From Bacteroidales bacterium (GTDB taxonomy: Bacteria > Bacteroidota > Bacteroidia > Bacteroidales > Marinilabiliaceae): a stretch of DNA of 64,000 nucleotides. Under the pieces are notes generated by a model. That model was not told where the DNA came from and searched no databases. It saw nothing but the letters and a program-made list of their open reading frames with translations. The stretch is taken from assembly GCA_022768325.1 (NCBI GenBank), contig JALEMI010000044.1:62001-126000 (forward strand), in the 5' to 3' direction. This document shows positions 47,655 to 50,493 of this stretch, piece by piece. Each line of letters opens with the position of its first letter. Positions within the stretch are counted from its first letter, which is position 1. A program made the position numbers and the translations under genes.

Positions 47655-49454
47655 TTATTTTTGTTCTGCGCCGCTTGGGCGTATGTCTTTTATCATGAGT
47701 TGCTCAGCCGCATGACCGCGGAAGGCGTTGCGCTCCATGGTGTAGCAGATGTCGAAAGGCTGCCCCCCGCCGACGACGCTGCTATATTTCGAGCCGAGGC
47801 CAAAACCTATGCCCGAGCGCACGGTGCGGCTGCTTTGGTCAATCATGTCGAGCTTCAAGTGCTGATGGAAATAGCCAAACGTCTTTGAGGTGCTGTAATC
47901 AAATACGCCCTGCGTTACGAATACGGGCCTCGTGTTGCAAGTGCCGAAGGGCTCCATGCGGTCAATCTGTTCGAGCAGCCCTTTGGACATATCGGCGATG
48001 TTGGTTATCAGGTCCACGTCAATTTGCGGACTGCGCTTGGGGTCGGACGCGTGGAGGTTCGCATATTCAATTATTCGCCGTCCAAACTCTTCGACGTTCT
48101 CAATTTTGAGGGTAAGACCCGCAGCGTAGGTGTGGCCACCGAAGTCCTCAAGGAGGTCGGCGCAAGACTCTATGGCCTTGTAGAGGTCGAAGTCGCCAAC
48201 CGACCTGGCACTGCCGGCCGCGAGTGTGGGGTCGGCTTTCGAGCGGGTGAGGATAATCGTCGGGCGGAGGTAGTTCTCGCTAAGGCGTGAGGCGACGATG
48301 CCAATGACGCCCTTGCTCCATTGCGGTTCGTAGAGTACGATGGCGTTGCCACTCAGTAGGGAGGGGTCGGCGGAGAGCTTTCGCAATGCCAGGCGCGTTA
48401 TCTCGCGGTCCAGGTCTTTGCGCTCGTCGTTGCTGTCGTCAATGTCGTGACTTATTGTTTCGGCAATTGCCTTGTCCGCAGTCAAGAGGAGCCGTACGGC
48501 ATCGTTGCCGCTCTTCATGCGGCCGGCGGCGTTGATGCGTGGCCCAATCTTGAAGATGATGTCGGAGATTGTCACGTGACCAGGGGCAACGCCCGCTCTG
48601 GCCATGATGGCGCAGAGACCCATATTGGGGCGGGTGTTGAGGCGTTGAAGGCCGTGATAGGCCAAGACGCGGTTCTCTCCTATCATTGGCACAATGTCCG
48701 AGGCTATGCTGACGACGAGCAGGTCGAGCATATCGTAGAGAACGGTCTTGTCGCGCCCCGTCTTGGAGTAGAGGGCTTCCATGAGCTTAAACCCAACTCC
48801 ACAGCCCGACAGGTTTTTATCGGGATATGGGCAGTCGGGCCTCTTGGCATCGAGGCAAGCGACAACGTCGGGCAATTCGTCGCCCGCTACGTGATGGTCG
48901 CATATTATGAAGTCCACGCCACACTCTCGCGCTTGCCGCATTCTCTCAACGGCCTTGATTCCGCAGTCGAGGGCAATGACGAGCGAGTAGCCGTTTTCAT
49001 AGGCGAAGTCCACACCCTGGCGCGAAATGCCGTACCCTTCGTTAAATCGGTCGGGTATGTAAAAGCCAAGCCGGTCGTCGGAGTCGATAATGTGGCTGAG
49101 AGCCTGGTACACGAGCGACACTGCCGTCACGCCGTCTACGTCATAGTCGCCGTAGATAAGTATTTTCTCGCGCTTTTCGAGGGCTTGCCAGACGCGGTCC
49201 ACTGCGCGGTCCATGTCGCGCATCAAGAACGGGTCGTGAAGTCGTTTTAGGTCGGGGTTGAAAAAGTCAAATGCGGCGGCTGGCGTGTCTATGCCCCTCT
49301 GAATGAGTAGGCTCGCAACGATGGGTGAGATGCCAAGCAACCGGGCCAGCTCGTGGGCTTGGCCGTCATCGGGTTGCTCTTTTATGTTCCAGACTTTTTC
49401 CATCTGTAAGAGAGGGGAGGCCGCACGGGGAGAGGTGCGGACATATATCCGCAC
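47655..49454 (-). CDS. recJ: Single-stranded-DNA-specific exonuclease RecJ
   Basis: ILIYGDYDVDGVTAVSLVY, FIICDHHVAGDELP, GPRINAAGRM, GGHTYAAGLTL. Confidence 0.96.
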   Translation of the reverse strand: MRIYVRTSPRAASPLLQMEKVWNIKEQPDDGQAHELARLLGISPIVASLLIQRGIDTPAAAFDFFNPDLKRLHDPFLMRDMDRAVDRVWQALEKREKILIYGDYDVDGVTAVSLVYQALSHIIDSDDRLGFYIPDRFNEGYGISRQGVDFAYENGYSLVIALDCGIKAVERMRQARECGVDFIICDHHVAGDELPDVVACLDAKRPDCPYPDKNLSGCGVGFKLMEALYSKTGRDKTVLYDMLDLLVVSIASDIVPMIGENRVLAYHGLQRLNTRPNMGLCAIMARAGVAPGHVTISDIIFKIGPRINAAGRMKSGNDAVRLLLTADKAIAETISHDIDDSNDERKDLDREITRLALRKLSADPSLLSGNAIVLYEPQWSKGVIGIVASRLSENYLRPTIILTRSKADPTLAAGSARSVGDFDLYKAIESCADLLEDFGGHTYAAGLTLKIENVEEFGRRIIEYANLHASDPKRSPQIDVDLITNIADMSKGLLEQIDRMEPFGTCNTRPVFVTQGVFDYSTSKTFGYFHQHLKLDMIDQSSRTVRSGIGFGLGSKYSSVVGGGQPFDICYTMERNAFRGHAAEQLMIKDIRPSGAEQK

Positions 49455-49487
49455 ATTGCAATATTACTTAAAAATTGTAATGTGGGC

Positions 49488-49662
49488 AAATCAAAAATCC
49501 CCACTCCATGCATCTCTGCCGGAGTGGGGTGTTTTTGGTTCACTGTAACTAACTAACTGTTGTTTCGAGCCGTTGCTCGGACCTCTGGGTTTCACCGTCA
49601 CGGCTTTCCCACGATAACTTTGAATCTCTATTATGAAAACACTCTATTCTCTTGTCTTTTGA
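49488..49662 (-). ncRNA. Candidate sRNA/leader A (paralogue of candidate B)
   Basis: TACATTTG promoter motif (49675-49668); shared core AGCCGTGACGGT inside a TGGG/CCCA stem; CGAGC-AACG-GCTCG hairpin; terminator CCCCACTCC..GGAGTGGGG-ATTTTT. Confidence 0.55.
49493..49529 (-). terminator. Terminator of unit A
   Basis: 9-bp perfect stem plus T5 on the minus strand. Confidence 0.7.
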
Positions 49663-49667
49663 CATTG

Positions 49668-49675
49668 CAAATGTA
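49668..49675 (-). promoter_or_regulatory. -7 motif TACATTTG of unit A
   Basis: 54 bp downstream (start to start) of TTGACAAAAA, as in unit B. Confidence 0.55.
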
Positions 49676-49912
49676 TTTACGTCGCATGGCGTAGCTAAAT
49701 GTTTTCGACAACCGACGCGTTTTTGTCAACGAAAGTGTCGTCTGGGGCAAAAGGGGTCCCGTTTGGGGTGTTTTTGGTCAAGAACTCCCTAATTGACAAT
49801 GATTTACAGGTTCAAGATGCCCTATTCAGGCCGTTGCGGATGACATACTCTCCTTTCGTTGACAAAAAGCGTACGAACATTGAAAAATGTATTCAGGTGA
49901 ATTGTGATAGTT

Positions 49913-49920
49913 TACCTTTG
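49913..49920 (+). promoter_or_regulatory. -7 motif TACCTTTG of unit B
   Basis: 54 bp downstream (start to start) of TTGACAAAAA (49859-49868). Confidence 0.55.
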
Positions 49921-49925
49921 TATTG

Positions 49926-50090
49926 TCACGAAGAATGAATAGTGATAGTTTTTCATAATGGAGGTTTTTAGTTGCGTTAGCCGTGACGGTCGACGCGGGC
50001 GAAGGACAACGGTCCACGCTCTGTTTGATTGTGATTTTTTCTCATAAACGACCCGTATGGAACATCCACATACGGGTCGTTTGTTTTTTT
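49926..50090 (+). ncRNA. Candidate sRNA B (paralogue of candidate A)
   Basis: Shared GTTTTTCATAATGGAG and AGCCGTGACGGT segments, GCGT/ACGC enclosing stem, GGAC-AACG-GTCC hairpin, 14-bp terminator. Confidence 0.6.
50046..50090 (+). terminator. Terminator of unit B
   Basis: AAACGACCCGTATG-gaacatcca-CATACGGGTCGTTT-g-TTTTTTT; 14-bp perfect stem. Confidence 0.85.
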
Positions 50091-50178: not shown

Positions 50179-50493
50179 CTACAAGATGCCGTCCAAGATT
50201 TGAGCCAAGGCCTCTTTGGACTTCAACCCGATGCTCTTCTGAGCGACTTGCCCGTCTTTGAAGAAGAAGATTGACGGAACGGACATTACGCCGCTCTTGG
50301 CCGCAGCATCGCCGCACTCGTCGATGTCGACCTTGTAGAATTTAGCTTTGCCGGCATACTCCTCGGCGAGGGCGTCAAAGTGTGGCGCAAGGGCGCGGCA
50401 TGGTCCACACCATGCGGCACTAAAGTCGACTACAACGACACCGCTTCCTGCTACGGCCGAGTCGAATGTTTCGTCTGTAAGGTTCTCAATCAT
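50179..50493 (-). CDS. trxA: Thioredoxin
   Basis: VVVDFSAAWCGPCRALAPHFDAL; VMSVPSIFFFKDGQ. Confidence 0.96.
   Translation of the reverse strand: MIENLTDETFDSAVAGSGVVVVDFSAAWCGPCRALAPHFDALAEEYAGKAKFYKVDIDECGDAAAKSGVMSVPSIFFFKDGQVAQKSIGLKSKEALAQILDGIL

Follow-up and report, generated by a model that had tools for sequence, protein, structure and literature searches.

Predicted structured small RNAs in a divergent pair between recJ and trxA: a genus-level family with possible susC start-codon seeds

The region between recJ and trxA in the analysed window, a stretch of 64 000 nucleotides from a Bacteroidales genome, poses the question of what its two non-coding units, which face away from each other, might be and do. 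A preliminary description made from the sequence had regarded them as a duplicated family of structured small RNAs (sRNAs) of unknown function, and had suggested that the unit nearer to recJ could also act as a leader of that gene.

Layout of the two units and their upstream element

Units A and B are divergent, paralogous and non-coding, and each has its own −7 box of the Bacteroidota type, TAnnTTTG in both, and its own terminator (Table 1). The arrangement first described is thus confirmed from the sequence, and the motifs quoted for it are all in place, including the TGGG/CCCA and GCGT/ACGC arms and both hairpins with AACG loops. The 12-mer AGCCGTGACGGT forms an inverted match of 12 nt at 100% identity (49594–49605 on the minus strand and 49979–49990 on the plus strand) and occurs in exact form at these two sites only in the 2.72 Mb of the genome. 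The 5′ arms (49616–49639 and 49950–49973) are 79% complementary over 24 nt. The fold of A was calculated at −50.9 kcal/mol (z = −3.85), with 0 of 200 dinucleotide shuffles as good, and that of B at −58.2 kcal/mol (z = −4.24), with 1 of 200 as good. Part of the 5′ arm of B is paired with the 3′ box in its predicted minimum free energy fold, and the seed of B may therefore not be free.

Table 1. Positions of the predicted sRNA units, their parts and the neighbouring genes in the window
Feature	Position	Strand	Basis or remark
recJ	47655..49402	−	ATG at 49402; outside the sRNA unit
recJ −7-like box TAATATTGC	near 49457–49466	−	between the A terminator and recJ
Unit A, predicted sRNA, ~170 nt	49490..49661	−	5′ end inferred from the −7 box, 3′ end at the terminator
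A Rho-independent terminator	49495..49535	−	sequence, fold
A hairpin 2, CGAGC-AACG-GCUCG	49566..49579	−	
A hairpin 1, TGGG / GCC-GUGAC-GGU / CCCA	49586..49611	−	
A 5′ seed GTGTTTTCATAATAGAGATTCAAAG	49618..49642	−	resembles the FopS R1 consensus; shuffle and target tests
A −7 box TACATTTG, sigma-ABfr type TAnnTTTG	49668..49675	−	sequence
A upstream element CTTTCGTTGACAAAAA	49720..49735	−	putative regulator site
B upstream element CTTTCGTTGACAAAAA	49853..49868	+	putative regulator site; spacing to the −7 box as in A
B −7 box TACCTTTG	49913..49920	+	sequence
Unit B, predicted sRNA, ~165 nt	49927..50090	+	sequence, fold, homologues
B 5′ seed TAGTTTTTCATAATGGAGGTTTTTAG	49946..49971	+	target and shuffled-seed tests
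B hairpin 1, GCGU / GCC-GUGAC-GGU / ACGC	49974..49996	+	
B hairpin 2, GGAC-AACG-GUCC	50004..50015	+	
B 3′ box UUUGAUUGUGAUUUUUUCUCAUA	50024..50046	+	retained in several paralogues
B Rho-independent terminator	50043..50090	+	sequence, fold
trxA (thioredoxin)	50179..50493	−	syntenic neighbour of the sRNA locus in five species

A perfect inverted repeat of 16 nt, overlooked in the preliminary description, lies upstream of both promoters. The distance from its core to the −7 box is equal in A, in B and in the A unit of G007, a genome of the same genus, whose B unit has a variant of the core at about the same place. Exact copies of the 14-mer core of CTTTCGTTGACAAAAA were found only at the A and B sites in 463 kb of the genome. 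Since A and B share this element at the same spacing, and the exact core is nowhere else in those 463 kb, one regulator common to both units is suggested. Variants of CGTTTGTTGAAGAAAACG were also seen upstream of copies in G001, G002, G003, G005 and G012 (L311, L261, L260, L312, L262, L288), some of them repeated and with a different spacing to the −7 box; these are possibly sites for a common regulator across the genus.

A and B are absent from Rfam, as neither reaches the cut-off of any family and the sole Rfam match in the window is one tRNA. The 6S RNA and Bacteroidales-1 models gave no match in the window, and a relaxed Rfam search (E up to 10) yielded only matches attributable to chance and, for BTnc231, a weak alignment to A over the full length.

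Homologues, synteny and the two-hairpin domain

A blastn search of 100 relatives gave a single convincing match, in G007, where both units are present in the same divergent arrangement. A sequence model of four copies (model R1; A and B from here and from G007) found further copies in G002 and G003, and G012 contributed two more. Six copies, with those of G002 and G003 left out, were used for a structured model (model R2), which recovered these held-out copies at 31.3 and 28.3 bits. It also revealed copies in G001 and G005 and, at C103 of the own genome, a third local copy (F0) whose orthologue in G007 lies at C79. Counting the third local copy, the family comprises at least 12 copies from seven species, all of a single uncultured genus of Bacteroidales. 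With these homologues in related genomes, and with the covarying stems described below, the duplicated structured sRNA family is supported. It looks restricted to the genus, since no convincing copy was found outside it among 149 genomes, at the limited sensitivity that the stricter filters of large searches allow; two weak matches outside the genus (E = 0.08 and 0.27) look unrelated. Phage and viral collections gave no match. The model R1 match in G009 (L264) was dropped, as it appears to fall in a tRNA-like stretch, and weak matches of either model (e.g. in G014, G062, G118 and C52 of G004) were dropped because the layout of promoter, hairpins and terminator was not visible. A shorter relative, L289 (G012:C80:49681-49770), keeps the 3′ box UUGAUUGUGAUUUUUCUCAUAGCGGUGAG and has no 5′ seed. 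In both genomes that carry the third copy (L321 in G000:C103 and L320 in G007:C79), the DNA upstream of it includes, at a similar position, a transposase-like gene whose sequence is of IS3 type.

The neighbourhood of the copies was informative. In G002, G003 and G005, trxA lies directly upstream of the copy on the same strand, and the minus strand of the window carries both trxA and A, with the reversed copy B between them. The sRNA copy of G005 is followed by ribD and that of G003 is preceded by a methyltransferase fragment resembling prmC; in the window, both prmC and ribD are also near trxA. Since position played no part in the searches, the trxA synteny is independent support for homology. 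Away from the trxA locus are the G001 copy, next to sufE, the G012 copies, and the third local copy, whose neighbour is a cation efflux gene. Because the copy downstream of trxA lies on the strand as in A in three other species, A probably holds the ancestral position and B is probably an inverted duplicate.

Two hairpins are kept across the family, one with a GNGA-type loop and one with an invariant AACG loop, and their stems covary. Hairpin 2 has the form NNNC-AACG-GNNN. When eight sequences were aligned without gaps on CAACGG, 32 of 32 cells could pair; one column pair showed five pair types and another four, and the observed values for doubly changed cells and for the covariation score were reached in 0 of 500 shuffles. 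Copies found later carry the AACG loop on unrelated stems (e.g. CUGUAC/GUACAG and ACGGUC/GACCGU). For hairpin 1, GCC-GNGA-(N)-GGY is kept and the outer stem varies; its count, like that for hairpin 2, favours covariation, and is biased upward by the manual choice of the outer arms, which bridge internal loops that differ in length. The compensatory covariation originally proposed is thus carried by the wider family, the pairs in A and B alone being thin evidence, and the 12-mer then called invariant is so within the A/B pair only, relatives having the more general form of hairpin 1.

Similarity of the 5′ arms to known seeds and predicted pairing with susC start regions

FopS is a family of paralogous Bacteroides sRNAs, whose Rfam consensus starts GUGUUUUUCAUgGUAUUAGAUUUAAGGUUAA; the start of BTnc231 is similar. 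The 5′ arm of A resembles the R1 seed of FopS to a degree reached by 1 of 2000 shuffles, and the likeness of the B arm to this seed was not significant (584 of 2000). Copies in G001 and G005, with UUUUUCAUAAAUAGAGGUUUGAUUU, are intermediate between A/B and FopS.

Both FopS and GibS are reported to pair with the start-codon regions of their target mRNAs, which for FopS are susC mRNAs (PMC11697453, PMC7366714), and the seeds of each species were therefore scored on their own susC starts. RNAduplex was applied to the start regions (−35 to +25) of susC genes (TIGR04056) and of background genes, the latter being samples of 92–340 genes per genome with the start set by rule at the most upstream ATG. 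The two groups were compared by one-sided Mann–Whitney tests, the p values for the six seeds being uncorrected. In the own genome a preference for susC was found for B (p = 0.0045) and, marginally, for A (p = 0.039). The strongest cases were members from other species, whose seeds are more FopS-like (G005, p = 0.0003; G001, p = 0.0038); these two results are not fully independent, since some susC genes are common to both. The preference was weak in G007 (A, p = 0.26; B, p = 0.066). Of 240 dinucleotide-shuffled seeds in each case, the number that gave a mean energy difference as good was 8 for A and 1 for B in the own genome, 19 (A) and 18 (B) in G007, and 0 in both G005 and G001. With the background limited to ATGAAN/ATGATA starts, B retained its preference (p = 0.03) and A was no longer significant. 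In the same RNAduplex test the 3′ boxes and hairpins showed no preference for susC as pairing parts, and nor did the third local copy F0, whose seed is degraded.

At individual targets, long predicted helices span the start codon of susC in G005 and G001, and in the own genome a 10-bp pairing site for A lies at a susC start codon and is kept in the G007 orthologue (pair L211/L346). The full-seed complement pattern of A and B found no near-perfect start-codon target in the own genome. Of the earlier assessment, an sRNA family of unknown function, the first part stands and the second can be improved on: as the 5′ arms resemble start-codon-pairing seeds, function need not remain open, and they look like GibS/FopS-related seeds aimed at susC mRNAs.

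Proposed action, alternatives and relation to known sRNAs

We favour, at a probability of roughly two in three, the reading that A and B are trans-acting sRNAs of a genus-level family that repress SusC-type transporters and contain a new structured middle domain. Transcription of each unit would start at a sigma-ABfr-type promoter of its own and stop at its own terminator, and one shared upstream regulator would probably govern both. The 5′ arm (of the form UUUUUCAUAA-n-AGAGGUUU, a relative of the GibS/FopS R1 seed) would pair across the start codon of mRNA for a susC-type TonB-dependent transporter, with the result that its translation would be blocked. The middle domain, which carries the GNGA-type and AACG loops, probably has a role in stability or in binding a protein. 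The own genome encodes an RRM_1 protein (contig C67) with the same type of domain as the FopS-binding protein RbpB, so an RbpB-like partner for the hairpins is possible. A bolder version, in which a genus-specific family has joined a FopS-like start-codon seed to a new protein-binding module of GNGA and AACG hairpins, and in which the divergent pair is a two-gene switch under one regulator that chooses the glycan transporters made, we put forward only tentatively.

The weight given to the 5′ arm is the point on which an alternative turns. The two hairpins might be the main active part of the RNAs, capturing a protein and titrating it in the manner of CsrB, with the arm of little importance; the loops are the best-conserved part, F0 retains the hairpins and has lost the seed, and an RRM protein is encoded. 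However, each RNA has just two such hairpins, and the arm is also conserved in most members and is the sole part with a susC preference, which makes this reading distinctly unlikely. Far less probable is a role for A as a cis-acting recJ leader (an attenuator or a riboswitch), B being a decayed copy. recJ does lie downstream of A and is encoded on its strand, but A ends in a strong terminator of its own, a −7-like box of recJ's own follows behind, B converges on trxA and the homologues are located away from recJ, so the suggestion made at the outset is not supported.

A small peptide gene is most improbable. B does contain a short reading frame, open for about 29 codons (start ATGGAGGTTTTT), whose first codons (MEVF) recur in the B copy of G007, but no ATG is present at this place in A, and downstream the frame differs between the own-genome and G007 copies of B (B0 and B7), although both keep the RNA hairpin. 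We attach still less credence to a housekeeping RNA diverged beyond detection by Rfam: size and promoter would fit, but 6S RNA, tracrRNA and SRP RNA gave no match at E up to 10, there are several paralogues per genome, and the folds of A and B are unlike the long hairpin of the 6S type.

Among known sRNAs, FopS (RF04319) shares with A and B a sigma-ABfr-type promoter, the presence of several copies, the R1-like 5′ arm (in A) and susC start-codon targets, which for A and B are predicted in silico. In FopS, however, the 5′ single strand leads directly to the terminator, whereas in A and B a pair of conserved hairpins separates the seed from the terminator, and the units are ~165–175 nt long, against 71 positions in the FopS model; RF04319, with a gathering score of 56 bits, matched neither unit at E up to 10. 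A and B were kept apart from FopS because two of its defining features, the Rfam score and a terminator directly after the 5′ strand, were sought and neither was found. The order of parts, with a 5′ seed, two hairpins, a linear stretch and a terminator, is like that reported for GibS from B. thetaiotaomicron (PMC7366714), a comparison by published description; GibS differs in having promoter motif PM2 and other targets, A and B having TAnnTTTG boxes. BTnc231 (RF04180) has a similar 5′ end, UUUUUCAUAGAGAUU, but its weak full-length alignment to A, at 14.5 bits (E = 2.6–3.3), is below the cut-off of 80.4.

In the literature considered, the control that Bacteroidota exert on glycan transporters after transcription has been worked out in a single model species. 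A second, structurally different family that appears to target the same class of mRNA would suggest that silencing at the susC start codon is a wider strategy in the order. The strongly conserved loops would offer a concrete handle on the RNA-binding partner, and the trxA synteny offers a simple route to more members.

FopS itself is also present in the genus, as L235 (G010:C41:116-182), in a genome of the same genus, is a full match at 76.8 bits. The own genome has a FopS-like candidate, L294 (G000:C110:397-477, minus strand), in which the seed GATTTTTCATAGTTTTAGAGTTTTATTTGG is followed by a terminator and which scores 27.5 bits with RF04319, below the cut-off; L248 in G007 is similar to it. 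Two other candidates, L297 (G006:C10:22916-22963, minus strand) and L298 (G004:C12:5510-5566, minus strand), have a UUUUUCAUA-n-AUAGAGGUUU seed and a terminator, with middle parts that differ.
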